33,643 nt of DNA from positions 1-33,643 of IMG/VR virus record IMGVR_UViG_3300036885_000082, one strand, 5' to 3'. The stretch is from a virus. Positions 937 to 31,478 of the stretch are shown here, in pieces. The notes under the pieces are model-generated. The model worked only from the letters and a program-made list of their open reading frames with translations. It ran no database searches and was not told the origin of the DNA. The position numbers and the translations under genes are program-made. The first letter of the stretch is position 1, and each line of letters opens with the position of its first letter.

Positions 937-2157
937 TTAAACATTTTGCGTTATTAACATAAATTCGCCATTAAGGTCATACTGTAACGAGAGCACTTGA
1001 AAGTAGTGTCCTATACTTATCGCGCCTGTAATAGTCTGGAGAGTATAGTCTGATAATATCCGAACGACACAAAGGCGACCGTGTGTCGCATAATCAACCA
1101 TATCGAACCAAATACAATCATCACCTATCATATACACGTGAATGTAGTCCGAAGGGGACGGAGAGGTGCGAAATAAAAATCTTAAATTATTATACCAATC
1201 GAGAGAGAGTAAATCATTTGATGCTGCCGACTCGACATAATCCCTCTGAATACTCGGGTCGATTTTAGCGGCGAAAGTGTACGTATAATAATCTGATCTG
1301 TTAGCAGCCTTGAAACCAACACTCACACCGTCCCCCTGAGCTGGCTGTCCCGCAGTCTGATAGCCGAAAATCTGACTTTTATATAAATAATTGCAGTCGA
1401 CCGTTATCAGGGGAAGCCAATCATTTCTTATAAGTCTATAGCCGTCTGGATTATCGGGGTCGTCTATTATTGTTAATTTGAAAATTGGCAACGTCATTCT
1501 TACAAAGTCCCATAGGTACGGTCTTAAGACATTCACCGCTTTATCATTTACGCTTCCCGCTCCATGAAATATGGTGTCCTGATTCAACGCCCAGACCATT
1601 TGCATATCAAGGCACACCTGAGCAAGTTCAATCTGTGTCGAGCCTGTCATTGGAAGTCCGCTCGTTAGGTCAATATTAAAAATAACCGCTTTCCATACGT
1701 CAGGCATAATACTAAGAGGAAAACCGCACGCCTGAAACATACATTGCAGTAAATACAAATATGTTACATTCTCGTGTCCTGTGTTATCTGTGGAGTAATT
1801 AAATGCCATATTTGAGGCGTCTAACTGAGCTTGCAGCACGCTCGAACATATTTTTTTCACTGTTAGCTTTTGGTAAGCATAACTAAGAGACACTGTCCAG
1901 AACGAAGTCTCTATATCCCTATTCGCTTTTGTTATAACGTATTTTTTTAGAACTACCGAGTCCAGAAATAACCTAACGTCTGCGCCGACTGTTAAAGCGT
2001 ACGGGATTTTATCAAATATGCTTAAATCAAAAGTCGAAATAACAGGCTCTCCCCTGTCCGTATGCTCCTGAATTGGAAATACGCTATTCGTTATATCGAC
2101 ATAATCGCTTATGTCCTGCCATGCAGAGCCGACATATAATTTTAAGCTATACGACAT
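937..2157 (-). CDS. Tail hub / distal tail protein (Tal-like)
   Basis: A 406-residue protein that begins 11 nt inside the end of the tape measure gene. The N-terminus (SLKLYVGSAWQDISDYVDI) followed by alternating strands and a 'VRLFLDSVVLKKYVITK' segment resembles the beta-rich entry domain of siphophage hub proteins, which link the tail tube to the tip. The position directly after the tape measure supports this role. No peptidase or lysozyme motif is visible. The specific family is inferred mainly from synteny. Confidence 0.6.
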   Translation of the reverse strand: MSYSLKLYVGSAWQDISDYVDITNSVFPIQEHTDRGEPVISTFDLSIFDKIPYALTVGADVRLFLDSVVLKKYVITKANRDIETSFWTVSLSYAYQKLTVKKICSSVLQAQLDASNMAFNYSTDNTGHENVTYLYLLQCMFQACGFPLSIMPDVWKAVIFNIDLTSGLPMTGSTQIELAQVCLDMQMVWALNQDTIFHGAGSVNDKAVNVLRPYLWDFVRMTLPIFKLTIIDDPDNPDGYRLIRNDWLPLITVDCNYLYKSQIFGYQTAGQPAQGDGVSVGFKAANRSDYYTYTFAAKIDPSIQRDYVESAASNDLLSLDWYNNLRFLFRTSPSPSDYIHVYMIGDDCIWFDMVDYATHGRLCVVRILSDYTLQTITGAISIGHYFQVLSLQYDLNGEFMLITQNV

Positions 2158-4546
2158 TCCTAACCCCTGCGTTATTTAATCGTAGCTGACTTTTATTAAC
2201 AGTCTCCCTTGTGAACGTCAAACCGTCTATGTTAGCATGCACGTTTACAATCGGACTCATGTTTTTATTTATTAAATTTCGATTAAGTGCAAGTATGGCG
2301 TTCACAATATCCATGTTATTATTTGAGCTCTGCCCTGCGGGTGTAACTTGTACGTGTTCCCCGCTTTCTACTAAGATCGGGTAAGAGTCATTAGGAAAAC
2401 CTGGCGGTACTGTAAAATCGCCTCCCTGCGCTAATTTCGGAGCTATACTAAAACCGCGTGCTAAAGTCATTGCCATAGAAAATCCAGCCATTCCCGCAGT
2501 ATCCGCACCTCCAAAACTCATTATACTTGCTAACATAGCTGGCTCTGCATATGCAGCCGCCAAAAGCCCTCCCGTTGTCACGCCCGCAATAACAGCCGTC
2601 GTCTGTGCTCCCTCTGACACTGCTTCTTGAATAAAAATACTTTCAATGTATTTCTCTACAATATTTCCAAGTGCTGTCACTATGGAGTCGATAATACTTG
2701 CGCCAGCATCTTTGAAAATGCTTTTAAGACCTTCGCCTAAATTCTTTGTCCCATTCATCATTTGAGTTATTGTACTTTTCCAATTACTCACAAGTGATTT
2801 TGTAAGATTCGTAGTCGAGTCATACATAAAGGAATTATTCTTTTTCCATGCTACGACTAACTTATCCTGTTGCGCTTTTTGATAATCGCTTACATTTGAT
2901 TTGTCCTCTTTCTCTCCAAACTGTTTCTGCTGAGTGATGTCGATTAAGGGTTTATTAGTACCAAGCTCTTTATTCTTTGCTTTAATTTTTTCGTTTTCTT
3001 CTTCCAAAGATTTCAATTTTGCTGCGAGAAGTTTCGCTAAATATGTTTTATATTCCTCAAGTGAGAGAGTATGGTCTCTGATCTGAGTGTCAACTCTTTC
3101 TTTCTCAAGTGATGTTATTTGAGCGTCGTACGACTTTTCAAATTCTATTTTTTTAGCGAGTAATTCTTCCTCCGCTTTTTTCTCATCGTCGACTCTGCCC
3201 TGATTAGCTTCCTTGAGAGCGGTTTCTAAAGCGACTCCTAAAAGTTTTTTCTTATCGTTAATAATTTGCTGCTGAGCCACACTGAGCCCGCCAACCTTTT
3301 CTTCATTCTCAAGTTTAAGCATACCGATATTATACTCGTCACTTGCTTCTTTCTCGTCTTTATCATATTTGTTTTTTATATCGTCTCTGTAAAGTTTTCC
3401 GTATGCTTCCATGAGCTGATATTGTACGTCAAGTTGATCTTTAGCCTGAGCCTCCGCTTCTTTCTTTAAGTCGGCTGCGGCTTTCTGATCTGCTTTTGTG
3501 GGGTCTCCCATGTTAAGAGGTTTCACTTTAACATTCATTTCAAGTTTTTGATTAGCCTTGAATAAACTTGCTATCGAGTCGTATGAGTCCACTGCGTCAT
3601 TTTTCATTGCAGTTAAACCACTCCCCCATATTTGAACTGCATGCTTAAAATCTCCCATAGCAAAAGCGACAAAAGAAGCTCCGAAAGTTCCCATGATGTC
3701 ACCAGTCTCTAAAATGGCAATTTTAATAAGTAAGAAAGCTCCGGCTATAATTTTCGCTGCAATTCCGAGCCCTTGCATCATGGCAGTAGTGTTATTTCCC
3801 TTGTCGATTGCTCCACTAAAGCTGCCTGTTACTGCTTCGATAGCCGGTACAAGCTCCGCTCCCATTCCCTTTTGAAGCTCCTCGACCTTATGGCTGAGAA
3901 TTTCCATACGTCCGGCGTACGTGTTAGCACTTGCCTGAGCCACTCCCCCGAAGTGATTAGATATGCCTTCGGTTATCATCTTAAGACGTTCCTCAGAGCC
4001 GCTCACTCCCTGTACGTCAATACCCATACGTCTTAAAGCGTTTGCCTGAGAACCGAAAGACCGTGTTATCATTGTCCCTGCGGCTTCAAAGCTCATTCCC
4101 CTTGCGGTTGCTAAGTCCATTGCAGCCTGAGTAAGCTGTTTAATTGTATCTGCGTTTCTTGTGTACATGCCCATAAATGACATGCCCTCAAGCAAATCAT
4201 TTTTCTTAAATCTTGTAGTTTTATCTAACGAGTCTGCGTATTTATCAAGCTCCTTTGAAGCTGCGCCAACAGCGAAATTTAATTTAGTGAGAGCGGTCTC
4301 AGACTTTCCGTATAGGTCAACACCTTCCTTGAGAAAATCAAAAATCTTTGCAGCTGCGAAAAATCCCGCTAACATGCCGGTGACTTTAGTTATACCCGCA
4401 CCGATTTTATCGGAGAATACGCTCCCTATTTCCTCTGCCTTTGTGGCTGTCGTACTCTTAAGATCGTTAAGGCTCTGTTCCATTTTATCGACCTTAGCGC
4501 TGATCTCGACATAGGTCTCGCCTAAACTATTTCCACTATCACTCAA
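2147..4546 (-). CDS. Tail tape measure protein
   Basis: A 799-residue protein starting at TTG, with AAGGAGG five nt upstream. The N-terminal ~240 residues look like the TP901-type tape measure domain (for example 'MSFEAAGTMITRSFGSQANALRRMGI'-like helical sequence around residues 150-176). Hydrophobic segments follow at about 260-300, a long highly charged coiled coil (rich in K, E and Q) at about 350-560, and another Gly/Ala-rich hydrophobic stretch at about 640-700. The tape measure fixes tail length. At the usual ~1.5 angstrom per residue this predicts a tail near 120 nm, which fits a siphovirus. It is preceded by the G/GT chaperone genes, the classical order. Confidence 0.92.
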   Translation of the reverse strand: MSDSGNSLGETYVEISAKVDKMEQSLNDLKSTTATKAEEIGSVFSDKIGAGITKVTGMLAGFFAAAKIFDFLKEGVDLYGKSETALTKLNFAVGAASKELDKYADSLDKTTRFKKNDLLEGMSFMGMYTRNADTIKQLTQAAMDLATARGMSFEAAGTMITRSFGSQANALRRMGIDVQGVSGSEERLKMITEGISNHFGGVAQASANTYAGRMEILSHKVEELQKGMGAELVPAIEAVTGSFSGAIDKGNNTTAMMQGLGIAAKIIAGAFLLIKIAILETGDIMGTFGASFVAFAMGDFKHAVQIWGSGLTAMKNDAVDSYDSIASLFKANQKLEMNVKVKPLNMGDPTKADQKAAADLKKEAEAQAKDQLDVQYQLMEAYGKLYRDDIKNKYDKDEKEASDEYNIGMLKLENEEKVGGLSVAQQQIINDKKKLLGVALETALKEANQGRVDDEKKAEEELLAKKIEFEKSYDAQITSLEKERVDTQIRDHTLSLEEYKTYLAKLLAAKLKSLEEENEKIKAKNKELGTNKPLIDITQQKQFGEKEDKSNVSDYQKAQQDKLVVAWKKNNSFMYDSTTNLTKSLVSNWKSTITQMMNGTKNLGEGLKSIFKDAGASIIDSIVTALGNIVEKYIESIFIQEAVSEGAQTTAVIAGVTTGGLLAAAYAEPAMLASIMSFGGADTAGMAGFSMAMTLARGFSIAPKLAQGGDFTVPPGFPNDSYPILVESGEHVQVTPAGQSSNNNMDIVNAILALNRNLINKNMSPIVNVHANIDGLTFTRETVNKSQLRLNNAGVRNVV

Positions 4547-5101: not shown

Positions 5102-5104
5102 ATA

Positions 5105-5521: not shown

Positions 5522-5992
5522 TTACTGTTCATCAAAAATTTGTAAGTTAATCCGGTATTGAAGTACCGAAGTCCAAACCTTATCCACACGTGGAACGAAA
5601 CGAGTAAAATCTCTTTTGGATTTCGTTACGTATGCAATAGTTGTAGTTACGGTATGCCCGACTGTCCCGCTTATCTGAGTAAAACTCATTAAAGACTGAA
5701 TTGCGTTAAAAGTTTTTTCTGCTGCTGCCGCTAAATTTCCGACCGCCTCCGAACTTTCCGACTCGTCATATAAATTTATCTGCATTAAAACCGTTTCAAA
5801 TTTATCTGCTGAATCCTTTTTATTATCGGGAAAGGTTAATTGGAATACTCCGTAAGTTTTCTCCAAATTATCGTCTGGTTTCTCTGCATAGAAAAAATTA
5901 TCTCCGAGCAAGTTTTTCAAAAAGCCTGCGTCCGTGTTAGCACTATAAACAGCCATAATTTGAGCTTTAGTTTTATTATACATGTTATTCAT
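5522..5992 (-). CDS. Tail terminator / tail completion protein
   Basis: A 156-residue protein whose ATG overlaps the preceding stop (TAATG). It has an N-terminal helix, a central beta region ('TYGVFQLTFPDNKKDSADKF', 'VLMQINLYDESESS') and a helix 'AAAAEKTFNAIQSL'. This layout resembles the tail-terminator/minor-capsid completion family (DUF3168-like). Position between the gp10-like and major tail genes agrees. It probably caps the tail tube and joins it to the head. The call rests on fold impression and synteny. Confidence 0.6.
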   Translation of the reverse strand: MNNMYNKTKAQIMAVYSANTDAGFLKNLLGDNFFYAEKPDDNLEKTYGVFQLTFPDNKKDSADKFETVLMQINLYDESESSEAVGNLAAAAEKTFNAIQSLMSFTQISGTVGHTVTTTIAYVTKSKRDFTRFVPRVDKVWTSVLQYRINLQIFDEQ

Positions 5993-6423
5993 TAAGAAGA
6001 AGCCTCCAAGTTTAATAGCTGTTTTATTCTGTCAAGATTTTCCTCAACCGCTCCTCTTAAAAACATTGCATTTGGAGCGTTACCCCCGATACCAAGCTCC
6101 ACGTAAGGAGCGTACTCTACGTTAGAGCCGATACGTACCGATAATTCAGGAGCGTTATTTTGAAGTCCGTCTCCTGATGAAGCTGCTGGCTGACCTTCGG
6201 GTCTCACCCCCGAACGTTCATTTTCAGTTGCGTAAGTGATCGAGCCTCTTAGCCGTCCTCCCACTCTGCCGCTTCCCTGTGGATATGAACCCACGACACA
6301 ACGGCTAACAGCCTCGCCTTGTACGAATACACCGACAAGGATAAGTTTATCTCTTAAATTTTCTTTTACCTTAACCATGAACTCAGGTATTCTCCAAGTG
6401 CTTGTTACTTTTACTTCACTCAT
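5992..6423 (-). CDS. HK97 gp10-like tail-head joining protein
   Basis: A 143-residue protein. The start overlaps the previous stop as ATGA. It has the family layout: an N-terminal helix, 'VGSYPQGSGRVGGRLRGSI' (gp10 proteins show '[ST]G.LR.SI' here), a middle 'RIGSNVEYAPYVELGIGG' (typical 'VG...YA.Y.E.GT') and a C-terminal helix after 'FLRGAVEEN'. The role is tail completion at the head-tail interface. Its position immediately after the lysis cassette shows the lysis genes are inserted between the connector and the tail genes. Confidence 0.8.
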   Translation of the reverse strand: MSEVKVTSTWRIPEFMVKVKENLRDKLILVGVFVQGEAVSRCVVGSYPQGSGRVGGRLRGSITYATENERSGVRPEGQPAASSGDGLQNNAPELSVRIGSNVEYAPYVELGIGGNAPNAMFLRGAVEENLDRIKQLLNLEASS

Positions 6424-6734: not shown

Positions 6735-7306
6735 TACTTACTCAAACCTGTGGGTGGAGTCGTAGATACAGGAGTCGCTTTAGCGTTAGCCGCAAATATT
6801 CCAACTAGGGAAGTACCGCCTCCCGCAGTTAGTATCCATGTCAAAAGAGTCTGCACCCATGAAGGGAGCACAACACCGAATAGACTTATTACGCAAAAGC
6901 CCAAGGCAGGGATTAAAGCTAACAGAGCTCCGACAAGTGTTTTAGATTTGAAGTAACCCTCGAAATTATCGAACTGAGTTCTCCAATCGGTAAGACCTAA
7001 CAATCCTGTAAGGGTTGTTACGATACCGATAGCGGAACCCTCAAAAGTAGTGTGAGGAAAGAATAATGCGAATACGAAAGCTGCAACCAAAGCTATTAAA
7101 TAGCCAATAGGCTTTAATAAATTTGTCATTTGAACCTCTTTTTTTATTATTGAATTGATAGAATTATTTTTTACAATTTCATACTTACTATTTAACTCAG
7201 AATGAGCAAGTGAGTCGGCTTTTACGTAATCGGGTAACTCGTGTCCGACATTGCTATCTTGCTCATTGAGTTCAAAAAAACTTTTATTTTTATTAGTTAA
7301 ATCCAT
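6734..7306 (-). CDS. Holin-like membrane protein
   Basis: As annotated from the ATG at 7306 it has 190 residues: a hydrophilic ~59-residue N-terminus, then three or four hydrophobic helices (about residues 62-85, 92-106, 124-148 and 150-170), then a short Pro/Thr-rich tail. A second start at 7129 ('MTNLLKPIG') has a clear GAGG five nt upstream, while 7306 has no SD and only follows the small membrane ORF by 6 nt. The short form (131 residues) is the typical holin size, and a dual start could give holin and regulator. Neighbours (transglycosylase, tiny TM peptide, TM/coiled-coil protein) support a lysis role. Confidence 0.65.
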   Translation of the reverse strand: MDLTNKNKSFFELNEQDSNVGHELPDYVKADSLAHSELNSKYEIVKNNSINSIIKKEVQMTNLLKPIGYLIALVAAFVFALFFPHTTFEGSAIGIVTTLTGLLGLTDWRTQFDNFEGYFKSKTLVGALLALIPALGFCVISLFGVVLPSWVQTLLTWILTAGGGTSLVGIFAANAKATPVSTTPPTGLSK

Positions 7307-9322: not shown

Positions 9323-10176
9323 GCGGGGAAAACTTCTATAGATATTTCAAATCGAGATGGCAGGTCAACATCCGCAGGTACGCCCGGATTAGCGGAAGAT
9401 TGAAATTCGATCTCCACATAATCATTACCCGCTGGATTATGGGAGACATAAAAGGGAATCTCTCCATCCCCCATAACAATATTATTTATGCTCACAAATG
9501 TTTTTGTATTGGGAAATGCCCCAGTTAATGTTCCTCTTAAAATCCCTGCCGTACTTTTTTGCCAATCAATAGCCCCAATCGTATTTACCATAGGGGTTGC
9601 TGGGGTGGGTACTCCACTATCCATGTCTATAGTATTGACGTATCTTTTAGCAACTGGGAGACTGGCGTTTAATTCGGCAGGAGACTGACCTGTAAATACC
9701 GGAATACCTCCAATAGTTTTTTTTACGATAATATCGTTATCGTTAAAGTCCGAAGCGGTCACGGCTGCGTACCTCAGTGAATTTTCTGGCAAGCTAACAC
9801 CGTCCGACGGTGACTGTACTGTCGGTTCCAAAGTAGCAGAGCCCATAAATAAAGTTGTACCGGAATTAAGATCGTCTGGAATTTCCTCTAAAATATCGTA
9901 GTAATAATTCAGACTTGTGAGCCCTTCGGTGTCTGACTTTGTAAGATACACGTTAATAGTGAGGGTCTTAGACACGCTGTCGTAAACAACTGCGAGCTCA
10001 CTATCGCTGCCGCCCGCTACTAAATTTTTCTTCTCAATTACTCTCGGTGATGTTAGCTCGGTGTCACGCTTTACCACAAAAGTAAATTTGTGAGCGGTTA
10101 CGTCCTCGCTTCCCTCGCTAACAAAAAGTAGCGTCTGCTTGTTTAGTCTTAAAATATTTATATTCTGTTCAATCAT
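9319..10176 (-). CDS. Putative head fibre / BppU-like protein
   Basis: A 285-residue protein with AAGGA before its ATG. The N-terminal ~110 residues ('HKFTFVVKRDTELTSPRVIE', 'LTINVYLTKSDTEGL', 'NYYYDILEE') look like the BppU/fibre N-terminal beta-sandwich seen in phage baseplate and head-fibre proteins. The middle contains 'VKKTIGGIPVFTGQ', and the C-terminal ~90 residues form another beta domain with 'PFYVSHNPAGNDYVEIEF'. Lying between the capsid and connector genes, it is more likely a capsid-attached fibre than a tail protein. The exact family is uncertain. Confidence 0.5.
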   Translation of the reverse strand: MIEQNINILRLNKQTLLFVSEGSEDVTAHKFTFVVKRDTELTSPRVIEKKNLVAGGSDSELAVVYDSVSKTLTINVYLTKSDTEGLTSLNYYYDILEEIPDDLNSGTTLFMGSATLEPTVQSPSDGVSLPENSLRYAAVTASDFNDNDIIVKKTIGGIPVFTGQSPAELNASLPVAKRYVNTIDMDSGVPTPATPMVNTIGAIDWQKSTAGILRGTLTGAFPNTKTFVSINNIVMGDGEIPFYVSHNPAGNDYVEIEFQSSANPGVPADVDLPSRFEISIEVFPA

Positions 10177-12858: not shown

Positions 12859-13836
12859 TTAGGCTAACTTGTGAATGAACTTAATTATTCTGATGTTCTT
12901 GTTATCATAAACACGAGCCCAGTTAGAAGTAGTAGCCAATTCAGCGTTAGTCGGGCTTGAGCCAGCAACCGTACCGCCGACGAACTTTATTCCACGAGGA
13001 TGCAGAACGTAATGCTGGCGATTGATTAACACATCGTCACCGGCTAAGCTATCTCTGTCGGTTTCAGTAGGAACCGGAGCTCCACCGTTACCAAGTCCGA
13101 AAGCACCCTGACCGAATATGTAAGTAGTCGCAACACCGTTGGCATAAGGACAGCCGTCGTCAACGATAACCTGACGACCAACGAAGGTTTTAATTTCGGG
13201 TCTCAAATCAGTTGCGGGCAAGGTGATGATTAAATCATCTTTCTGTAATTTTGCTTCGACTGCGGAGTGCATGCCTACTGCGGTAATTTTATATTTAGCG
13301 TCGCCGAGTACCTGTAAAGCGTCAACAAAAGTAGAAGCGGAAATAACACCGAGAGCTCCAACACCAGCCGAAATATCGGCAACGTTTCCAGACATGGAGC
13401 TAACACCCATTGCTCCCTGAAGAGCGGAGAATAAAACTGCCTGTCTTTTACGAGCCCAATATGCGGCTACAAGATCACCGATAGCTTTCATAGGGTCGTC
13501 GCCTGATATAGCTTTCGCCAGATCATTAACAGCCCAAGCCTTACCTCTCATTAAAAGAGCGGCTATATCCTGACCGGCTGAAATAACTGCGGGAGTTAGA
13601 GCGTGACCGTTAGTGTCGTCGAGAACTTCGTCGTCACCAACAAGATCATTGAAATAAGGCATGTTAATAAACTTACCGCCAGCAATCGCAAGCCTGTCAA
13701 GTTCGGGATTGTTAGTTATAATGCCAGATTGAGAAAAAGCGGATAATTCAGCAGTCCTCTGAATTACGTACGGATTAAAAACGGAAGGAACGATAATATC
13801 CGCAATTCGGGTTGCAGTACCTACATAAGTTGTCAA
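12859..13836 (-). CDS. Major capsid protein (Gp13-like, HK97 fold)
   Basis: A 325-residue protein starting at TTG (AAGGAG six nt upstream). It shows the family signature: 'ADIIVPSVFNPYVIQRTAEL' (residues ~12-31), 'FINMPYFNDLVGDDEVL' (~56-72), then 'RGKAWAVNDLAKAISGDDP' (~97-115) and 'GDLVAAYWARKRQ'. These match the Gp13-like/coat proteins that form icosahedral shells. The scaffold gene is 29 nt upstream and a strong terminator is just downstream. The leader has a T9-AATCA element shared with other virion genes. No decoration domain is seen. Confidence 0.92.
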   Translation of the reverse strand: MTTYVGTATRIADIIVPSVFNPYVIQRTAELSAFSQSGIITNNPELDRLAIAGGKFINMPYFNDLVGDDEVLDDTNGHALTPAVISAGQDIAALLMRGKAWAVNDLAKAISGDDPMKAIGDLVAAYWARKRQAVLFSALQGAMGVSSMSGNVADISAGVGALGVISASTFVDALQVLGDAKYKITAVGMHSAVEAKLQKDDLIITLPATDLRPEIKTFVGRQVIVDDGCPYANGVATTYIFGQGAFGLGNGGAPVPTETDRDSLAGDDVLINRQHYVLHPRGIKFVGGTVAGSSPTNAELATTSNWARVYDNKNIRIIKFIHKLA

Positions 13837-13865: not shown

Positions 13866-14516
13866 TTATTTCTTCCCTGCGGCAGCCCTAAGCTGTTCGG
13901 CAAGTTCGGGGTTCTCTTTAATAAGTTTCCCCTGCTCGGTCATATTAAAATGTTCTTTTGAAAATGGATTTTTGCCCTTGAAATTTTTACTAAAGTCGTC
14001 GCCGTTTGGAGCGTCTCTGCCATTTTCCTTAAACTTAATCGCAACGGCTTCATTTACGGCTGTGTCAAATAACAATACAAATTTTGCTACGTTCGTGTTA
14101 ACAGCCTCCTCAGTATCGCCGATCTCTAACAAGTCCAGTAAGTCCTTGTTAATTTTCTTACCGTCGAGTACCTTGAGAGCCTTATTCTTAAGTCCCATGA
14201 TCGTGACATTTTTCTGAGAGGCTTCAAATTTCTGCTCAAGCTCTCTAAGTTTTTTATCTGCGGGCGTTTCGTCGGGGTGTAGTTTGATGTATTCAGCGTT
14301 AACCAGCGCACTCAAGTTATTTTTCTTAAAGGTTTCAATCCCTTGAGAGACTCTCTGATCGGTTAAGCTATTTGCGAGTTTCTTTCCGTCCTCCGTACCT
14401 TCCAAGAAGCCTTTAACCTTATCGCTTGTTAGCGGGCTAAGTTCTCCGAGTAAAGCAATCACTTCGGGCGTACTTGCGTGCTCTGATAAATAAGCTCTGA
14501 TCTCTGCTATTGTCAA
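13866..14516 (-). CDS. Capsid scaffolding protein (DUF4355-like)
   Basis: A 216-residue, strongly helical and charged protein. Residues ~10-80 contain 'VKGFLEGTEDGKKLANSLTD' and 'VSQGIETFKKNNLSALVNAE', characteristic of the DUF4355 scaffold family, followed by a coiled coil ('DKKLRELEQKFEASQKNV'). The C-terminus is basic and Ala-rich. The apparent start is TTG at 14516 with GAGG five nt upstream. It overlaps a 5-codon ATG minicistron (14513-14530) that has the better SD; a one-base change in the T5 run would fuse both as MTRYF-LTIAEIR. The role is to guide capsid assembly and then leave the shell. Confidence 0.85.
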   Translation of the reverse strand: MTIAEIRAYLSEHASTPEVIALLGELSPLTSDKVKGFLEGTEDGKKLANSLTDQRVSQGIETFKKNNLSALVNAEYIKLHPDETPADKKLRELEQKFEASQKNVTIMGLKNKALKVLDGKKINKDLLDLLEIGDTEEAVNTNVAKFVLLFDTAVNEAVAIKFKENGRDAPNGDDFSKNFKGKNPFSKEHFNMTEQGKLIKENPELAEQLRAAAGKK

Positions 14517-15744: not shown

Positions 15745-15802
15745 TGTTAACCTCTGCGAATGTTAGCATGGACTCGCTCATATTTACTCCGTTGTTTTAT
15801 GA

Positions 15803-16844: not shown

Positions 16845-16874
16845 CGTTTTGAGTGCGGCTAAACTGCTAACATC

Positions 16875-18104
16875 TTATATAATAATTTCGAGTACAGGTT
16901 TATGCTGAATTAACTTGCTCACGCTCTTAGCGTTATATGCTTCGAGCTCCTCAGCTATCGGATAACCTTCGTATAAACTTACGTCCTGTAAATCAAAATT
17001 AAATTTGTCGATACCTGTTTTAGATACCAAATAACCATTCTGCGAGGCTTTCCCTGCGAGGTTAAGCCCCTTCTCATTATAATCATTTGAGCCAGCCAGG
17101 GACGAGCTGCGGGCGAACCAATCGGATATATAACAGGTGTGAAGGTGTCCGAATATTACAAAATGGATTATGATGTCACGCTTTGCATACTTGCCGACTA
17201 CTTGCTGGATAGTCTTTTGAGTGTTTGAGTCTCCGAGACTTTCTCCATGCAGCATTAAAATATTTTGTCCGGCAATATTAAAGTAATATTCAACAGGGTC
17301 TCCCTCGTGAAAGCTAACACCCTTTTTATTTTTGAAGCCTAATTTTAATAACTGAAATATCGTATAATCATAATTATCGGTCGCAACAGGGTCAACAAGC
17401 CCTCTCAATAATCCGATACGTGACTCGTTTCCGGTTACAGTACATACCGTTATATTCGCAGTTTTATTAAGATCAATAATAAATTTACTTAAGAGTTCGT
17501 AAGCCAGAAACGTCGCCTTGCTTCGATTAGTGCTTTGCATTAAGAGTTCGTCAAGCCTCCGGTCACTGTTCATAAGATCACCAGTGAGAGCGACTACGAT
17601 CTGCTTAACATTATTTAATCTTGCAATGCGTTTTAATTTATATGCGAATTTTTGCAAGCGTTTCGAGGCGAAAGTAAAATCATATTTATTATGCGGTAAA
17701 TTTATTAACTCGTTAAAGTGCGGGTCTGATATATGTGCTATTAGCGCAACTCCCTCCGTGTTAGCTTTATGCTTAACGGTTCGGAAGTTAATAGCATTGT
17801 CTCTGAATACTTTTATAAGCTCCTGAGTGTACTCGCCGATTGCATTTTCAACACGAGTAACCTCTCTAAAAGATTTGTCCTTTATACGATTTGCGTCACG
17901 AGATTTCTGCAAGCGTTTTGCAAGTGAAATATTTTCCTCAATGACTTCAAAGTCGGCTGTGTCCTCCGTAAATAAACGAGCACACCCCTCCGCTATATTC
18001 ATACATTTATAACGCTGCTTATTTTCCCCTGACGCTAACATCATTCTCCCTGAGAGAATAACCTTATCAGAGCCACACGAAGGACATAATGTTTTATGAG
18101 CCAC
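16875..18104 (-). CDS. Metallophosphoesterase with N-terminal zinc ribbon
   Basis: A 409-residue protein. Residues 7-41 form a zinc ribbon (C7-C10 ... C34 ... C41). The catalytic domain carries the calcineurin-like motifs: 'ISDPHFN' (D127, H129), 'LTGDLMNSDR' (D176), 'GNESR' (225-229, with Glu where GNH has His), 'MLHGES' (H286) and 'FGHLHT' (319-323). Such phage enzymes hydrolyse phosphodiesters and may trim DNA or a nucleotide; the substrate is unknown here. It is the last gene of the head-packaging operon, followed by a terminator-like hairpin. The changed GNH motif may weaken or shift activity. Confidence 0.85.
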   Translation of the reverse strand: MAHKTLCPSCGSDKVILSGRMMLASGENKQRYKCMNIAEGCARLFTEDTADFEVIEENISLAKRLQKSRDANRIKDKSFREVTRVENAIGEYTQELIKVFRDNAINFRTVKHKANTEGVALIAHISDPHFNELINLPHNKYDFTFASKRLQKFAYKLKRIARLNNVKQIVVALTGDLMNSDRRLDELLMQSTNRSKATFLAYELLSKFIIDLNKTANITVCTVTGNESRIGLLRGLVDPVATDNYDYTIFQLLKLGFKNKKGVSFHEGDPVEYYFNIAGQNILMLHGESLGDSNTQKTIQQVVGKYAKRDIIIHFVIFGHLHTCYISDWFARSSSLAGSNDYNEKGLNLAGKASQNGYLVSKTGIDKFNFDLQDVSLYEGYPIAEELEAYNAKSVSKLIQHKPVLEIII

Positions 18105-18851: not shown

Positions 18852-19793
18852 TTATTCGATACGGAGCGCATACCATTCATTATAGGTCATGTTTGGAATA
18901 AGCTCTTTTGAAATATTATCCTTCCTTTCTTGAGGTTCAAAGCCTTCGATCTCTTGCTGAACTACGCATCTGCAATTTATATCCTGCTCAGGTATGCCTG
19001 ACATTCCGGGCGCTTCTGTCGGTGTGCCGTCTGGAAAATAAAACATTCCGTCTGCGTCTGCGATCTGTCCGTCCATTTCAGCATGATCGTCTCTCGTCTT
19101 ATCGTCAAGTGTAGCAATCCAAACTTTTTTAATTGTCATTCCCATATTGTCGGCTGCCGTCTCCGCAGTATCCATAGCGTCTAAGCGTCCCATTTGCATG
19201 ACTCTATGCCCTTCGGTCTGAGCAATCAGCAATGATTTGTCTGCTGCTATTTTTGTTTTGCGTTCGATATTCTTTGCTATTTTATTATAGCCAGAGCCTT
19301 TTAATATGCCCTGTGTTAGCTCGCCACGTATTTGAGATAAGAGTGACTTCGAGTGTTCTGCTTGCCGTACCGTCCACTTGATATGATCTAGCGGATTAAG
19401 TAAACAGGCTTTGACATCACCCTCCCTGAGTAAACCGAAGCCGAGACGTACTCCGATCTGCGACTCCATTGCAAAGCCAGCATAATAATAGCTCTGCGAA
19501 TAAAGGTCTTTAAGTTCCTGAGTAGTCGTCTTAATTACTTCGCCGTTCGTTTGTTTTATAATATCAGCTATTTGTTTCTCCATGTTCGTAAGCCGGTTAA
19601 ACTTCTGCATATCGGAATACAAAACGTTTTGACCGTACTTAGCGAACATGTCGGCTATCTCGGACTGAATGTCCTTAAGAGCCGACTTGTACGAAGCAAT
19701 TAAATTGCGTGCATAGTTACTGACAAGCTGCTCAGAGCCTTTCTGACCTTTAGACATGAGCTCGCTCATACGCTTGTTAGAAAAGGTTGGCAT
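18852..19793 (-). CDS. Minor head protein (MuF / SPP1 gp7-like)
   Basis: A 313-residue protein whose ATG overlaps the portal stop (TAATG). The N-terminal two thirds are helical. The C-terminal part contains 'IAQTEGHRVMQMGRLDAM' and the MuF signature: 'KVWIATLDDKTRDDHAEMDG', then 'APGMSGIPEQDINCRC' with the final C-x-C. The family is packaged with or bound to the portal and helps head morphogenesis or ejection. Order portal - MuF is canonical. No toxin or ADP-ribosyltransferase fusion is present. Confidence 0.9.
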   Translation of the reverse strand: MPTFSNKRMSELMSKGQKGSEQLVSNYARNLIASYKSALKDIQSEIADMFAKYGQNVLYSDMQKFNRLTNMEKQIADIIKQTNGEVIKTTTQELKDLYSQSYYYAGFAMESQIGVRLGFGLLREGDVKACLLNPLDHIKWTVRQAEHSKSLLSQIRGELTQGILKGSGYNKIAKNIERKTKIAADKSLLIAQTEGHRVMQMGRLDAMDTAETAADNMGMTIKKVWIATLDDKTRDDHAEMDGQIADADGMFYFPDGTPTEAPGMSGIPEQDINCRCVVQQEIEGFEPQERKDNISKELIPNMTYNEWYALRIE

Positions 19794-21262
19794 TATTTAC
19801 CAGCCTTTTTATTCAGATTGTTTTGAATTTGAGCGTCTGGATTAGGGTCTGCTACATTTGCGTTCGGATCTGTCGGTAGCGGAGCTTCCCATAAATTAGC
19901 CGTGTTAGCTTTCTCGTCCTCACCCATTTGCTCAAGGGCTTTCTGCGGGTCGTCGATGAATGACAATAAACTTAACCTCGTGAGCTCTGGAATATTACCC
20001 TTAAGTTTTCCGGTTGTCTCAGCTTCGCCAGCAAGTTCAATAGGCAAGTTCCTTGTGAACTGATAGCCCATATTTTCATAATCGAACGGAATACCTTTCT
20101 TGCTCCACGTTGATTGCAGTAACTTAAACATATAACGTAAGCCACGTATATATTTACGTTCTTTGTTCATGGTATTATTCTCAAGTGATAATAGTTTCCA
20201 CTTGCGGGACTCACCGCTCTGACCTGTACCGGAGAATTTTTCGTCTGACATATCAACGGTTTTTGCTGCCTTGAGAATATCCTCGTTCAAAGTTTTCTTG
20301 TGCATTTCGGTATAGGCAACGGCTGACGATAAGTCTTTTGTGATAAATTTGCCGTCTGTATTTTCAGGGAATAATAGAAATCCGATCTCTCTGAATTTTA
20401 TCATATCTTCCTTTGTCGGCTCAACACCATAAAAGGCAAGGTACGCAAGCCTGAACTCCTCAGTCTCATTCTGTTCGTCTGATAAATTCCTATCGTAAGC
20501 GTCGATAAGACTCTCAACTTTTTCAAAGTCTCCCTGCTCTGTATTATTATTCTGGAACTTTACCATAGGCACGCCGTCGAACATGTGAGGTCTCGGATTG
20601 TCGCCCTTTACGTCGTCGTCCAGAATAAACTTACCGTTATCAGTATAAGCCTTATAAAATGTTACGTTTGTTTTATCGTACCATTCCAGTTTAATAAGTT
20701 CTCTACTTATGCCGAGTACATCCTCGATCATGGTATAGAACACAAAGCCATACTGCAAGTCCTCAAGGGTTGCGTCGTATATAAATACTGACTCCCACGG
20801 TTTTGTATTCATAACACGCTCGTTGCCGTCCTTGTCAATATATAACAGCCTTGAACCGTACCCGCATATAGACGCATATTGAGCGGTAGTAGCGTCAATG
20901 TCCTCAATGTTATTTATGATCTTGAACGACTTAAGAGTATCGACAATCTTTTGAGGGACCGCAACGGCTGCATCTTTGCTTTGATAAGCGTATGCAATCG
21001 GGTGTCCGGTAAAATATCCGACATTGTTATCGGTTATTATTCCCCTGTAATCCATCCATAATTTATTATTTACCTTCGTGTCGTCGCTGAATGTTCGCTG
21101 TAATATCGGAACCTCGCCTCGATACCTTAAAAATAACTGTTCCATTTGTACACGTCTCGAAGCTGTTAACATCATTAAGTCGGTTATTATTCGACTCATT
21201 ATGTCGGTATCATTACTCTCAGCTTGAAGCGTGATTAAATCTACTATCTGCGCACTTGTCAT
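19793..21262 (-). CDS. Portal protein (SPP1 gp6 type)
   Basis: A 489-residue protein with GGGAGG four nt before the ATG. It shows the family pattern: N-terminal 'LFLRYRGEVPILQRT' and 'VNNKLWMDYRGIITDNNVGY' then 'FTGHPIAY' (the 'n.k..n.y...iv....gY..G.pi.Y' signature), 'YDRNLSDEQNETEEFR', and a C-terminal acidic/Asn-Pro-rich tail. It forms the dodecameric vertex through which DNA enters. It follows TerL and a small gene and precedes the MuF gene. Confidence 0.9.
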   Translation of the reverse strand: MTSAQIVDLITLQAESNDTDIMSRIITDLMMLTASRRVQMEQLFLRYRGEVPILQRTFSDDTKVNNKLWMDYRGIITDNNVGYFTGHPIAYAYQSKDAAVAVPQKIVDTLKSFKIINNIEDIDATTAQYASICGYGSRLLYIDKDGNERVMNTKPWESVFIYDATLEDLQYGFVFYTMIEDVLGISRELIKLEWYDKTNVTFYKAYTDNGKFILDDDVKGDNPRPHMFDGVPMVKFQNNNTEQGDFEKVESLIDAYDRNLSDEQNETEEFRLAYLAFYGVEPTKEDMIKFREIGFLLFPENTDGKFITKDLSSAVAYTEMHKKTLNEDILKAAKTVDMSDEKFSGTGQSGESRKWKLLSLENNTMNKERKYIRGLRYMFKLLQSTWSKKGIPFDYENMGYQFTRNLPIELAGEAETTGKLKGNIPELTRLSLLSFIDDPQKALEQMGEDEKANTANLWEAPLPTDPNANVADPNPDAQIQNNLNKKAGK

Positions 21263-21615: not shown

Positions 21616-23133
21616 TTATTGTATTGTCGTGAGTGTTTTCTTTTCGAGTGTCACCTCTGCTAACATGGTAGCCACATCCGCAGCGTCGTCATGTTTGTTA
21701 GTGCCGAATTTTACGTATGATAATAATTGCCTCATAAATAAATCGTAATCCGAACCGGCTGCGTAATCGTCCTTTGATCTGAATACGAAAAACTGCTTAA
21801 TCATTCCAGACTTCATTAAAATACGTGTCTCTTTATTTTGTGAGGTCGCCTTCCATGTAATAGTACAGGGCGTCTTACCCTTGCAAAGTTTCTGAATATT
21901 TTTAGCAAAAGATTTTCCTCCGGCGTTGCTTTCGATCTGCATTTTATTACAGCCAGTATTTATTATTTGTTGTGCAACTCGTGGCTCGGTTACTTCAATC
22001 GGATCTTGAGTGAATACTACATCAGTAACGTACACCTTCCCTTGTATCATTCTGCCAATGATTGAACCTAAGAAGTCAAGCCCTTCGTCTGCCGTGTCCG
22101 TAGTTCCGACGGTTGCGTTGCAAATAATCTCGCCAGCTTTAGGAGTACCTTCTGCATATTTTCTTAATTCATTTAACTTGAAATATTGAAGTTCGCTCTC
22201 AGGGAATAATGAACCTTTCGACTCGACTGGATTTTGCATAAATTCAGCTTCCCATATAAACGAGTCTGTAATTCTTTTGAGTTCGTGGTATTCATACGTG
22301 CTTTTTACTTCTTCACAAAACGACTGACCCTTATCGTCCAATGCAGGAACGACAACTTGAACCCAAAAGTTAGCATATAGCGAAGGGTCTAATAAAAATT
22401 GATCTAACGAAATGCACTTATCCATGTCTCCGATCTTACCGATAACGTCCTTCTTACTCCACCTTGTTGCGATCTGAATTTCAGGACAATTTTTCTCCAT
22501 ACGTGATTTATGCGTACTTGTGTACCATTGCCATTTTTTCTCAAGTACGAGTTCACTCATAGCCTCGTCAATATTCTTAATCGGGTCGTCAAGTATGCTA
22601 ACACCGTCACAGCCTTTTCCTGTTACAGCTCCTCCAACACCCGCACAAAAATAGCTTGACTGTTTTGCGGTTGTTAAAGCCCAATCTGAGACCTGAGACT
22701 TATCGCTTTTAAGTTTAATGTCAGGAAACACTTCGAGATAATCGGGGAGCTGTACAATTGTTCTCACGTCATAGCTGAATTTCATAGCTAATGAGTCACC
22801 GTACGCATTTCTCATAATAGATTTTTCCGGATGTCTCCCTAAATACCAGGCACAGTACAATGAAACGATATACGACTTTCCAGCTCTCGGAGGTAACGAT
22901 AAAGTTAGCTTTGTGATTAAACCAGACTCTACCATTTGCAGGGCGTTTGCTATTTCTTTTAAGTGAGGTTTTCCACTAGTAAAAAACTCCGAGTCCATGA
23001 ACACGCAGAACGTATAAAAATTATCCCTCGCTCTGATTGCCATGCGGCGTTTTTGGATTAAAAGCAGTTCCTCCGTTTCCTCCCCTGTAAGACCGTAAAC
23101 ACCTCGAAGTATATTAGTTGTTGTTTGAGTCAT
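21616..23133 (-). CDS. terL: Terminase large subunit
   Basis: A 505-residue packaging motor. The ATPase part has a Walker A-like 'LSLPPRAGKSYIV' (residues ~78-90) and a Walker B 'GVSILDDPI' (~177-185). The RNase H-like nuclease part has 'VGTTDTADEG' (~342-351), 'KVYVTDVVF' (~366-374) and 'HDDAADVATMLAE' near the C-terminus, giving the conserved acidic residues. It pumps DNA into the prohead through the portal and cuts concatemers. It follows terS by 9 nt. The SD is weak, so it is probably coupled. Confidence 0.95.
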   Translation of the reverse strand: MTQTTTNILRGVYGLTGEETEELLLIQKRRMAIRARDNFYTFCVFMDSEFFTSGKPHLKEIANALQMVESGLITKLTLSLPPRAGKSYIVSLYCAWYLGRHPEKSIMRNAYGDSLAMKFSYDVRTIVQLPDYLEVFPDIKLKSDKSQVSDWALTTAKQSSYFCAGVGGAVTGKGCDGVSILDDPIKNIDEAMSELVLEKKWQWYTSTHKSRMEKNCPEIQIATRWSKKDVIGKIGDMDKCISLDQFLLDPSLYANFWVQVVVPALDDKGQSFCEEVKSTYEYHELKRITDSFIWEAEFMQNPVESKGSLFPESELQYFKLNELRKYAEGTPKAGEIICNATVGTTDTADEGLDFLGSIIGRMIQGKVYVTDVVFTQDPIEVTEPRVAQQIINTGCNKMQIESNAGGKSFAKNIQKLCKGKTPCTITWKATSQNKETRILMKSGMIKQFFVFRSKDDYAAGSDYDLFMRQLLSYVKFGTNKHDDAADVATMLAEVTLEKKTLTTIQ

Positions 23134-23685: not shown

Positions 23686-24609
23686 TTATTTATAACTCTC
23701 GATTGGAACGTTTAACGCTTCCTGAATAGCGAACTCAAAACATTTTGCAGGGTTATTATATCCTAATAGCTGTTTATAACGTTCTCGAAGTTCTTTCCAC
23801 ATTTCGTTTATGTTAGCGTCAACCTTAATTGAAATTCTTTTGCTGAACTCGTCAGGGTTTTGCGGCTCAATACCGTAGTATTCCTCAACGACTTCGCACA
23901 TTTTTAATATAATGCCAGAGGTGGAGCGTACATCTTCGTTCTTGCTAACTTTTTGAACGGCTTTTTTGAACTGCTCAAAGTATTCGAGATCAGCTACATG
24001 TATGCTGGACTTCTCCTCTAATACTTTGATAACGTTGTCAAAAGTTTTCTTCTGATTTGGAAGGAATAATAAATGTATATTCTGATAGTCAAACTCAATA
24101 CCGATTTCGTCGATCTTAACTTTAGAGTCAAGTTTCAAATCTTCTTCAAATATGCCGGACTCAAGTTTTGCCTCAAGTGTGCTTATACCTTCGTAAATCT
24201 CCTTAAGTAACTGAGCGTCACTGTGACCGGATAACGCATTATGAGCTAATTGCTTTGCCTTAACCTGATCGGGTGTCAATACTTCCTCAATAACTAATAC
24301 GAATATGTACAAAACGGCTGCGGCACGTGAGGCTCTAATCCGGTGATGTCCTGATATGATCGGTAGTTCGTTGTGCTCGTTAGGCATACCGCATAAAGGC
24401 AAGCTCTCAAGGCGTTTGTCCTTCCTAATATTTTCTTGCAGTCTCTCAAAGCGTTTGATCGGCATTACTTGAGCGTTCTTATCTTGCTCTCTTAAGCAGT
24501 CGATATGTACCTTGTAAATTGCCAGACCGTTACCCATGTCGAGAACTCTCTCAATGGTTTTCTCATTAACGATTTCGGGTTTCTTAACTTTTGCCACTTG
24601 TCTCTCCAT
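23686..24609 (-). CDS. ParB-like nuclease-domain protein
   Basis: A 307-residue protein overlapping the end of the methyltransferase-like gene. The ATG at 24609 has no SD; a GTG four codons later (24597) is preceded by GGAG and may be the true start. Residues ~40-125 contain 'VMPIKRFERLQENIRKDKRL' and 'PIISGHHRIRASRAAAV', the ParB/sulfiredoxin-fold box (GHHR). The C-terminal ~170 residues are helical. Phage ParB-domain proteins are often paired with DNA-modification enzymes, as here, and may act as DNA-binding partner or CTP/ATP-dependent clamp. It is also next to terS, so a packaging role is an alternative. Confidence 0.8.
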   Translation of the reverse strand: MERQVAKVKKPEIVNEKTIERVLDMGNGLAIYKVHIDCLREQDKNAQVMPIKRFERLQENIRKDKRLESLPLCGMPNEHNELPIISGHHRIRASRAAAVLYIFVLVIEEVLTPDQVKAKQLAHNALSGHSDAQLLKEIYEGISTLEAKLESGIFEEDLKLDSKVKIDEIGIEFDYQNIHLLFLPNQKKTFDNVIKVLEEKSSIHVADLEYFEQFKKAVQKVSKNEDVRSTSGIILKMCEVVEEYYGIEPQNPDEFSKRISIKVDANINEMWKELRERYKQLLGYNNPAKCFEFAIQEALNVPIESYK

Positions 24610-26008: not shown

Positions 26009-26018
26009 TTTACCTCTT

Positions 26019-26050
26019 AAAAAAAAAGGTGAGCGTGTTAGCACGTCACC
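26019..26050 (-). terminator. Rho-independent terminator after the tRNA-like element
   Basis: On the minus strand GGTGA-CGTG - CTAA - CACG-C-TCACC forms a 9-bp stem with one bulged base, followed by nine T. It separates the tRNA-like element from the methyltransferase gene. The loop contains the TGCTAACA octamer that recurs in this genome. Confidence 0.88.
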
Positions 26051-26071
26051 CGACAAGTTTATTAAATTTTG

Positions 26072-26282: not shown

Positions 26283-26744
26283 TTAATCGAATAGGCTGAG
26301 GGGCTCTTTAATTCCGGCTGGCGCTTCAAATCTTGAGAACGGTTTACATACTCCTAAGTTGTCAGGATAACCGAACTCCTCAATTTTAATATTCAGTACG
26401 TCCATTAAGAATTTTGCTAAATAGTGACGGTGACATGAGTCGGAGGGCTTTTCAAAACAGACAAGGGCGAAGTCTTTTCCTCCGCTTAAGATTTCCCATC
26501 GTTGAACGAGGTCTTTAGCTCTGTATTGCTTGAGTATGTCGTCATATTCAGCATAAAAATAAAGCTGTCCCTCCCTGTCCCAATTATGAGCTTTTCCGGC
26601 TGCTAACATTGAGTCGGTCGGAGCGAGTCGTTTATCCATGTCTCCATTATACCACTTTGGAGGAAAGCGAGAGATTCCGATTGGAACGATACCAGCATTC
26701 CTCAGCTTCGTAAGATTTGCGAAATAAGATGTGTAGATTTTCAT
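26283..26744 (-). CDS. DUF488 family protein
   Basis: A 153-residue protein with GGAG five nt before the ATG. The start 'MKIYTSYFANLTKLR' and later 'PIGISRFPPKWYNG', and especially 'FALVCFEKPSDSCHRHYLAK' (C-x-E ... CHR), are the DUF488 signature. The function of the family is unknown; a Cys/His pocket suggests an enzyme, and homologues occur in phages near nucleic-acid modification genes. It is the second and last gene of the short operon driven by promoter P2. Confidence 0.8.
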   Translation of the reverse strand: MKIYTSYFANLTKLRNAGIVPIGISRFPPKWYNGDMDKRLAPTDSMLAAGKAHNWDREGQLYFYAEYDDILKQYRAKDLVQRWEILSGGKDFALVCFEKPSDSCHRHYLAKFLMDVLNIKIEEFGYPDNLGVCKPFSRFEAPAGIKEPLSLFD

Positions 26745-27010: not shown

Positions 27011-27051
27011 GTTCACTCCGTTATGTATTTGTTATTTTTAATGTCAAATGA

Positions 27052-27080: not shown

Positions 27081-27099
27081 GTAAAAAATGAAATAAATT

Positions 27100-27137: not shown

Positions 27138-27148
27138 CAATATGAATA

Positions 27149-27594: not shown

Positions 27595-28093
27595 TGTTCC
27601 TCCTGATATTGTTAAGTGTTTCGGTTAATCGTATTTTCGTTTCCATTAGATTAACGTCAATCTTTGCACTCCTCAGCAATATGAGTCTCTGCCAGTTTTC
27701 GCTTCCTATATGGTTTATAATTTTATCTGAATACTCTTTTGAAATTACAGGGTCATTCGAGTGAACTCCGTTCGTATGCTCCTTAAATGATGTTAGCACA
27801 ATACCATTCGGTAAGTGATAACGTAAAAAATAATTCGGCTTGTGTACGATATGGTGAGAGCTTAAGCCGATCAGAGCTCCTGACTTGCTTGATATTTCTG
27901 CTGGTGTGCCGCTGAGTTCGGATTTCCAGCCAGCTTTTTCTTTTATACATAAAGCCCAAAGCTCGTCACACTCTTTTTTGAGTTTTTTGCTATTAACTTT
28001 CGGCACTTTAATACGTTTCGTTTTTATACGTTCCGATTTTCTCGGTATGTGAGGAAATAAGTTTTTCTTAATTTTCGTACTGCGTGCTAACAT
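27575..28093 (-). CDS. HNH/NinG-like nuclease-fold protein
   Basis: A 172-residue protein with GGGAG seven nt before its ATG. The first ~45 residues are very basic. The core has 'KECDELWALCIKEKAGWKSE', then 'IGLSSHHIVHKPNYFLRYHL', 'PNGIVLTSFKEH' and 'TNGVHSNDPVISKEYSD', the order seen in NinG/HNH proteins of phages ('..HHI..R....lR.dl.Ng..lC..cH...hs'). The HHI pair and Asn are kept, but the zinc-binding CxxC pairs are missing, so it may be a zinc-less HNH fold. Probable role: recombination junction or DNA nicking in replication. Moderate certainty. Confidence 0.65.
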   Translation of the reverse strand: MLARSTKIKKNLFPHIPRKSERIKTKRIKVPKVNSKKLKKECDELWALCIKEKAGWKSELSGTPAEISSKSGALIGLSSHHIVHKPNYFLRYHLPNGIVLTSFKEHTNGVHSNDPVISKEYSDKIINHIGSENWQRLILLRSAKIDVNLMETKIRLTETLNNIRRNNAGKIT

Positions 28094-28462: not shown

Positions 28463-28854
28463 ACGATCTCCGACTTTTCAAGGTGTCTTTCGATAACGTC
28501 AACGAGTAATAAGTCATTTGACGTTAATTCGTCGGCATGCCTCTTGAATGTTTTATAGGCTGCGGTTAATATGCTTATCGGATTATTACAGTCAACCTCA
28601 AGCAATTCCCCTGCTGAATGTGTTAGCATTTTATCTTTTTGCTGATCTATCCAGACAAAAGCCTCACGTATTTTAATATTCATATAGAACAAGGCTGTCT
28701 TAGCTTTCTTCCTCCACTTCATATAATCGGAGGTACTCAGTTTAACTCCGTCCTGATCGTTCCGGCATGGGTCGCCAAGTTGCATCTCTATTTTCAAAAC
28801 AGCGACGGTCATTTCTTCGATTTTTATTCGGGCTTCTTCTATTGATTTGAACAT
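28459..28854 (-). CDS. Helical phage protein of unknown function
   Basis: A 131-residue protein with AGGAGG nine nt before its ATG. Helices 'IEEARIKIEEMTVAVLKIEM', then 'YMKWRKKAKTALFYMNIKIR' and a C-terminal helical segment. The 'LGDPCRNDQDGVKLSTSDYM' motif recurs in small early proteins of phages ('IqaqL...nr...dG..ms..ey..Wr..a..A'). It follows ssb by 33 nt. The leader, ACTATAACAAACAGGA, resembles that of ssb, so the two may be regulated alike. Confidence 0.65.
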   Translation of the reverse strand: MFKSIEEARIKIEEMTVAVLKIEMQLGDPCRNDQDGVKLSTSDYMKWRKKAKTALFYMNIKIREAFVWIDQQKDKMLTHSAGELLEVDCNNPISILTAAYKTFKRHADELTSNDLLLVDVIERHLEKSEIV

Positions 28855-28887
28855 AAATTTTTACCTCCTGTTTGTTATAGTTTAATA

Positions 28888-29310: not shown

Positions 29311-29344
29311 AGTGCTTTATCCTTTTTGTTATAGTGATTAAATA

Positions 29345-29953
29345 TTAAACTGTCTTTCGGGCTGCCCTGAGTTTGTTTTTAATTTCTGCTTTTTGATCGT
29401 CAAGAAACATGAGCCGATCACGTTGTATCGCAAATTTGACCTCTTTTGCTGCCGATAATTCGATAAGTTTTTTCTCCTCCGGTGTTAGCTCAAATTTTTT
29501 ATCTCTTAAGGCTGCTAACATTCTCCCTTGTCTGATTAAATTATCGACCCTCTGATTAACTTTTAATTCGATTTCAAATAATCCGTAAACTGCGGTGTCC
29601 TTTGCTATCCAGTCATTCCAGTCAATCCGATTGAATACCGTTGCTCTTGTCACTGCATCAAGTCGGATTAAAAAAACTTTCTTAGTCCAATAATTGAGTA
29701 GCATTTGCTCGTACCATGCTTTAATAGTCTGAATGGAAATATCAATCATTTTTGTAGTTCCCATTTTCAAACAGTGACCATGTACAAAAATAAATTCAAG
29801 TTCAGAACTTTTATATAACTCAAGAAGATCACCCTTAACGAAATCCGGTGTTTTCTCCACCTTCGGAATAGAGAGAATTAATCTGCTCTCTATATTCGTC
29901 CTCTGTAATACTTCCTTTAGGCTGCTTTTTACTAAATTGCTTATTTGTTCCAT
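29345..29953 (-). CDS. Unknown protein in replication operon
   Basis: A 202-residue protein. The ATG at 29953 has a fair GAGAG seven nt upstream but lies 119 nt inside the end of the replication-organiser-like gene, an unusually long overlap in another frame. Later in-frame starts lack an SD. Segments such as 'LEFIFVHGHCLKMGTTKMID' and 'FNRIDWNDWIAKDTAVYGLF', and a charged C-terminal helix region, give no family match that I recognise. Its place between the initiator-like gene and ssb suggests a replication role. Confidence 0.6.
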   Translation of the reverse strand: MEQISNLVKSSLKEVLQRTNIESRLILSIPKVEKTPDFVKGDLLELYKSSELEFIFVHGHCLKMGTTKMIDISIQTIKAWYEQMLLNYWTKKVFLIRLDAVTRATVFNRIDWNDWIAKDTAVYGLFEIELKVNQRVDNLIRQGRMLAALRDKKFELTPEEKKLIELSAAKEVKFAIQRDRLMFLDDQKAEIKNKLRAARKTV

Positions 29954-31089: not shown

Positions 31090-31478
31090 TACAATACTCC
31101 CTGAGCCGTCACATTCCAATAAGCAGTTTTTTTATGAGTAACAGGGTCGATAGCTTCCTTGTTAAGTTTTATTCTCCCCATGCTCATTAAGCGTCCTCTG
31201 CGGTCTGGAATTAAGTGACGGGGTATTTTTGTATATTCGCTAATCATTCGATCGTTAGCGACTCCCATTATGCTTAAGGCTTGAATTACGATCATAATTT
31301 GTGACTTCCTCGTGTTAGCAGGGAACTCGTCATTTGACTGAGCCGATAGGTGACAAAATTTAGGTCTGCTAACCTGATCTGGCGTTGCTATTGTGAGCGG
31401 GTCGAATAACGGTGTTCCGGCAGTCTCTCCACGTTGCTCTATGAGCTCTGCGAGTTCTGGATTATATTTTATATTCAC
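31089..31478 (-). CDS. Winged-helix-like early protein
   Basis: A 129-residue protein that starts at GTG with GGAGG four nt upstream. The core 'TRKSQIMIVIQALSIMGVAN' and 'DRMISEYTKIPRHLIPDRRG' then 'RLMSMGRIKLNKEAIDPVTH' looks like a winged helix: helices, then an R-R-G-R-L turn and a wing, ending in 'KKTAYWNVTAQGVL'. It may bind DNA in regulation or replication. It follows a compact hairpin (31498-31516). Family uncertain. Confidence 0.6.
   Translation of the reverse strand: MNIKYNPELAELIEQRGETAGTPLFDPLTIATPDQVSRPKFCHLSAQSNDEFPANTRKSQIMIVIQALSIMGVANDRMISEYTKIPRHLIPDRRGRLMSMGRIKLNKEAIDPVTHKKTAYWNVTAQGVL

Follow-up and report, generated by a model that had tools for sequence, protein, structure and literature searches.

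We describe a short DNA word, TGTTAGC, that recurs about once per kb throughout a 33,643-base linear viral record (IMGVR_UViG_3300036885_000082, hereafter the window), a contig of an uncultured SPP1-like siphophage. This genome-wide word is real, unusual and kept up in evolution. Its enrichment depends neither on codon use nor on orientation, its sites turn over between related phages, one relative carries a dialect of it and another is temperate. Words of such kind betray a machine that reads sequence; the kind is already known, and the sequence and its reader are new. Our preferred reading, put forward tentatively from the comparisons below, is that TGTTAGC resembles an uptake signal sequence (USS) or DNA uptake sequence (DUS), and that it may have been gathered by temperate phages of a naturally competent host, whose uptake machine would be the reader.

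Enrichment of the word

The initial annotation had counted by eye 17 exact copies of the octamer TGTTAGCA/TGCTAACA, with about one expected at ~40% GC. Exact counting returns the same 17 copies (10 on the plus and 7 on the minus strand), and Markov models predict 0.85 (order 2) or 1.49 (order 3). The reversed octamer, that is, the word read backwards, has no copy in the window. All the coordinates first listed are correct save one, since the copy placed at 15290 lies at 15280. The core GTTAGC/GCTAAC, initially put at about 47 copies against about 15, is indeed enriched: it occurs 48 times, with 10.7 expected under the order-2 model, and 45 times in coding sequences (CDS) compared with 16.4 +/- 3.6 under synonymous codon shuffling. 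This shuffling exchanges codons genome-wide and preserves every protein and all codon counts. Under the same treatment the octamer reaches 2.4 +/- 1.5 copies in CDS (maximum 8 in 500 shuffles), against 15 in the real sequence. Codon bias and protein composition are thus ruled out as the source of the enrichment, as had been supposed.

A higher-order Markov model had been named as a possible refutation, and for the octamer it suffices. An order-6 model built from the genome's own heptamers predicts 16.8 octamers (35 x 23 / 48), which makes the heptamer TGTTAGC, and not the octamer, the exceptional unit. The heptamer still stands out under codon shuffling: the window has 35 copies, 31 of them in CDS, where 6.5 +/- 2.1 are obtained by shuffling. 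R is favoured before it, and A, then T, after it. TGTTAAC is a tolerated variant in the window (19 copies vs 5.4 expected), and the consensus reads R-TGTTA-(G>A)-C-W. The octamer is a near-palindrome (TGYTARCA).

One-letter neighbours of TGTTAGC are not depleted (81 vs 91; 61 vs 68). Mutational conversion is therefore not visible, and VSP-like conversion of such neighbours into the word is ruled out.

Turnover and dialect in related phages

The word is shared with G001, a phage genome of 28,999 bases whose terminase is 82% identical to that of the window and whose shared genes are 65.6% identical at the DNA level. In G001 the octamer occurs 16 times and the heptamer 27 times, with the flank preference and density seen in the window. 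In the codon-aligned shared genes there are 13 heptamers in the window and 17 in G001, and just four coincide (of ~25 distinct sites). Thus, the word is conserved while its places change. G001 encodes a tyrosine integrase and a protein with a weak match to S24 peptidases, a type seen in repressors; it is a temperate phage. It was also the sole match when an alignment of the Mgm101-type recombinase of the window was used in a viral scan.

A more distant relative, L077, has a head protein 60% identical to that of the window and shares with it the genes for DUF7192, a small helix-turn-helix (HTH) protein, scaffold, tail and tape measure. L077 is enriched in GTTAAC, mainly as GTGTTAAC (16 copies vs 0.56; 13 dispersed copies vs 0.96), which is one letter off the window word and is flanked in the same way. 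When codons are shuffled, the L077 signal is weaker (20 vs 5.7 +/- 2.9, maximum 16). We judge the L077 word to be a dialect of the window word, the chance of a match within one letter being roughly less than 1 in 100.

About 75 other capsid relatives together have 87 heptamers against 93 expected, the word is virtually absent from terminase relatives at 58% identity or less, and no comparable enrichment was found among ~85 other related phage contigs. When 89 non-redundant phage contigs were scored by their top dispersed 7- and 8-mers, the window ranked first, G001 third and L077 sixth; ranks 2 and 4 are 62-kb genomes, which have greater statistical power.

Layout of the sites

The identified genes of the window, nearly all on the minus strand, encode terminase, portal, minor head, SPP1-type major head and tape measure proteins, SSB, a ParB-like protein, a DAM-like/GNAT protein and the Mgm101-type recombinase. 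The 35 heptamers fit a uniform distribution along this genome (Kolmogorov-Smirnov p = 0.996). They fall on both strands (20:15) and in various codon phases; two to three are intergenic, the rest lying inside genes, which matches the proportion of coding DNA. The claim of both orientations, different frames and some non-coding copies is therefore correct. On the coding strand of the window and G001 together the ratio is 23:39 (p = 0.056), which we count as not orientation-biased. The layout test in the window showed no relation of the sites to promoters or to the direction of transcription.

The initial annotation had also pointed to an octamer-free stretch between 5.95 and 15.29 kb. The octamer is indeed missing from 5.95 to 15.28 kb, but seven heptamers fall within this gap, so it arises by chance from the flanks and was rejected as a functional feature.

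All sites, as exact matches, are given below; octamer denotes TGTTAGCA, and heptamer denotes sites with the TGTTAGC core only.

1299..1306, plus strand, octamer
1861..1867, plus strand, heptamer
2230..2237, plus strand, octamer
2528..2535, minus strand, octamer
3922..3929, plus strand, octamer
4368..4374, minus strand, heptamer
5935..5942, plus strand, octamer
6304..6310, minus strand, heptamer
6918..6924, minus strand, heptamer
9793..9799, minus strand, heptamer
10051..10057, plus strand, heptamer
10117..10123, minus strand, heptamer
13399..13405, minus strand, heptamer
14427..14433, plus strand, heptamer
15280..15287, plus strand, octamer
15761..15768, plus strand, octamer, intergenic
16252..16258, plus strand, heptamer
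16865..16872, minus strand, octamer, intergenic
17313..17319, minus strand, heptamer
17759..17765, plus strand, heptamer
18034..18040, minus strand, heptamer
19314..19320, plus strand, heptamer
19903..19909, plus strand, heptamer in the portal gene, a gene with one site common to G001
21658..21665, minus strand, octamer inside the terminase large subunit gene, same site in G001
22596..22603, minus strand, octamer inside the terminase large subunit gene, absent here from G001
23811..23817, plus strand, heptamer
26036..26043, plus strand, octamer in a terminator-like hairpin loop, just upstream of the methylase-like gene
26601..26608, minus strand, octamer
27791..27798, plus strand, octamer
28085..28092, minus strand, octamer across the ATG of gene 27575-28093, same site in G001
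28621..28628, plus strand, octamer
29483..29489, plus strand, heptamer in gene 29345-29953, a gene with one site common to G001
29513..29520, minus strand, octamer
31313..31320, plus strand, octamer
31909..31915, plus strand, heptamer

The hairpin at 26036 reads GGTGACG-TGCTAACA-CGCTCACC on the minus strand and is followed by a T run. The G001 homologue of the methylase-like gene starts 16 codons later.

Resemblance to uptake signals

Uptake, Chi-like, methylation and protein-binding motifs had been offered as possible roles, and the first fits best. Temperate phages of the Pasteurellaceae gather the USS of their hosts, dialects included, with saturation near 750 per Mb (PMC6776037). As a positive control, Haemophilus phage HP1 contains 17 USS AAGTGCGGT in 32,355 bases, with strands 11:6 and a density of 525 per Mb; the window has its 17 octamers in 33,643 bases, at 10:7 and 505 per Mb. 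The top dispersed-word scores of HP1 are 8.9 (7-mer) and 15.2 (8-mer), and those of the window 15.6 and 12.2. We favour an uptake-signal-like word because its dispersed layout in both orientations, its density of about 500-1000 per Mb whatever the function of the genes, its turnover, its dialects and the temperate relative match the USS of temperate Pasteurellaceae phages, HP1 among them. It differs from USS in sequence, and no AT-rich tracts were seen flanking its sites. The DUS of Neisseriaceae (PMC3630211) are likewise short, dispersed and split into dialects among relatives, but their sequence is unrelated, and the window word has so far been seen in phages only.

We hypothesize that the host takes up DNA by sequence and is naturally transformable. 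Prophage DNA would then be replaced again and again by transforming fragments that happen to contain the host word, and temperate phages would thereby slowly build it up. Such a process would leave short, unoriented recognition sites across the genome, with quick turnover and maintained irrespective of the gene in which they lie.

Several observations weigh against this proposal. The window itself lacks a lysogeny region. TGTTAGC(A) does not match the Hin USS AAGTGCGGT, and it also differs from the Apl-USS and the DUS dialects. To our knowledge, sequence-specific uptake words are established in the Pasteurellaceae and Neisseriaceae only. A second word, AGATCAG, is strictly oriented and common to both phages, so other forces also enrich words here. 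Exact counting over the host had been suggested alongside counting in the phage. The enrichment in the window held, but all 294 genomes of the class Ignavibacteria searched for TGTTAGCA and all 396 genomes of the same phylum searched for RTGTTAGCW were far below phage density. These genomes were chosen around the sole bacterial genome with a terminase relative and may not belong to the host's lineage. That Ignavibacteria genome has a large terminase subunit (TerL) 58-60% identical to that of the window, and its 82 octamers in 3.9 Mb are below the reversed-word control. At this stringency TerL was matched in 1 of 391 genomes of the class, so the host phylum is uncertain and the host-level negatives are weak. 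Shine-Dalgarno sites at 24 of 38 tested gene starts of the window add to the doubts on the phylum. The TerL-based search and the word search in class and phylum yielded no host.

A more far-reaching proposal, possible rather than probable in our opinion, is that TGTTAGC serves as uptake signal in a third lineage with sequence-specific transformation, outside the Pasteurellaceae and Neisseriaceae and seen via its temperate phages, the TGTTAGC and TGTTAAC dialects marking related hosts. If the reader were a host uptake machine, self-recognising transformation would have arisen independently once more, and phages could be used as probes for uptake systems in uncultured bacteria. If the word were Chi-like or read by a phage protein, it would open direct access to recombination or the marking of genomes in a lineage without a cultured member. 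Each reading predicts something clear about the host's own genome.

Other possible readers

In phages that lack RecBCD inhibitors, Chi is over-represented at observed/expected ratios (O/E) of 2.4-4.8, and in lambdoid phages it is, like the window word, an over-represented word of octamer length (PMC3784561). The host RecBCD or AddAB could similarly recognise TGTTAGC, phage DNA bearing it escaping degradation and recombining. The heptamer O/E of 4.8 under codon shuffling falls within the Chi range, and the length of 7-8 and the asymmetry of the word fit as well. However, Chi acts one-way, and the window word is unoriented and evenly spread, with no clustering between origin and packaging site; this lack of orientation is what weakens the Chi reading. 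In addition, the phage has a recombinase of its own, and AGATCAG would make a better candidate. We therefore consider a Chi-like role unlikely, though it is the foremost competitor of the uptake reading.

AGATCAG is dispersed, in all codon phases, and favours the coding strand by 18:1 in the window and by 13:0 in G001 (31:1 together). Examples on the minus strand of the window are 32903-32909, 31374-31380, 27497-27503, 12076-12082 and 1293-1299. Its CDS counts exceed those under codon shuffling in both phages (16 vs 2.5 in the window; 9 vs 2.7 in G001). No AGATCAG sites are common to the window and G001 in the aligned genes. Judging from its sequence pattern, it is a candidate Chi, better placed than TGTTAGC.

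The reader could also be encoded by the phage: the ParB-like protein, the DAM-like/GNAT protein or the small HTH protein (14937-15185) would bind or modify the dispersed sites for condensation, marking or packaging. The first two are conserved between the window and G001 (73% and 77%), the HTH protein and DUF7192 are confined, among the contigs tabulated, to the word-rich phages, all three of which have them, and the near-palindromic octamer would suit such a role. Against this, L077 is a contig without the early region, and phages with the same ParB-like/DAM-like pair show no general excess of words, as detailed in the next section. The AlphaFold model of the ParB-like protein (predicted local distance difference test, pLDDT, 35) is unusable and gives no help on a DNA-binding site. 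A phage-encoded reader is thus distinctly unlikely in our view.

Phages often mirror the word use of their hosts. HIP1 of cyanobacteria is a palindromic word found host-wide, on both strands, in and between genes. The window word is likewise short, genome-wide, on both strands, genic and intergenic, and it might be such a signature arising from host mutation, repair or methylation, mirrored by the phages and with no uptake or recombination role. CTCAAG and AGATCA are likewise enriched in the window and G001. Nevertheless, HIP1 is palindromic and host-wide, and no host with the window word is known; the heptamer score of 15.6 is far above the 6.8 of the best unrelated dispersed word in the window, and the undepleted one-letter neighbours are contrary to a conversion process. 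We regard this explanation as improbable.

Repressor or transcription-control sites, like the stoperators of cluster A mycobacteriophages, would also be many short sites across a phage genome (PMC6550527), and several dozen short asymmetric sites, one of them (26036) in a terminator-like hairpin, would agree; but stoperators are bound by repressor and tied to transcription, while 31-33 of the 35 window sites are genic, as the coding proportion predicts, they occur in both orientations though the genes run nearly all one way, unrelated to gene boundaries, and the window and G001 sites are mostly non-homologous, which makes this very improbable.

The ParB-like and DAM-like/GNAT module

The genes for the DAM-like/GNAT protein, the ParB-like protein and terminase are contiguous in the window (module at 23686-26056), in G001, in Faecalibacterium phage FP_Brigit and in Microbacterium phage ValentiniPuff. 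A DAM-like/GNAT gene was present in 40 of the 40 non-redundant phage contigs found by alignment of the ParB-like protein (loci L126-L203). The two proteins are thus likely to form one DNA-modifying unit.

Four of the five strongest-word phages first seen carried the module, and a link between the word and the ParB-like and methyltransferase-like proteins had been considered from the start. As a general cause of words the module was rejected: the strongest-word score has a median of 4.4 in the 40 module contigs and 4.3 in 44 controls (p = 0.22), so the module alone does not create such words. In the two isolated module phages (62 kb), word scores drop when the genomes are cut into 20.7 kb pieces.

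A ribbon-helix-helix C-terminus of the ParB-like protein, an impression gained by eye, was dropped, with no family or PDB support. In a phage contig with the same module (L152:1857-4239), AGCGAGCC occurs in ~31 copies, mostly 36 bp apart and with conserved AAGAAACCCA spacer ends; it is a local 36-bp tandem array and was rejected as a dispersed word. G001 encodes a large fusion of an N6-methylase with a type I specificity domain (L033:14946-17297). It was not found in the window and therefore cannot explain the common word.

Repeats and GATC content

At the end of the window (33367-33643), ~15 tandem copies of the 18-bp unit CGTCACCGATTGAAGCTC continue off the contig, and a 27-bp repeat at 31549-31603 has two exact copies inside one small gene. 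In Faecalibacterium phage FP_Brigit (L036 and L038), GATC occurs 121 times vs 329 expected, and CGAGATC 23 times vs 2.9; GATC seems to be tolerated there mainly within CGAGATC. Three further contigs, L021, L023 and L028 (7.2, 8.0 and 4.3 kb), lack GATC altogether, against expectations of 14, 18 and 7, which points to avoidance of restriction.

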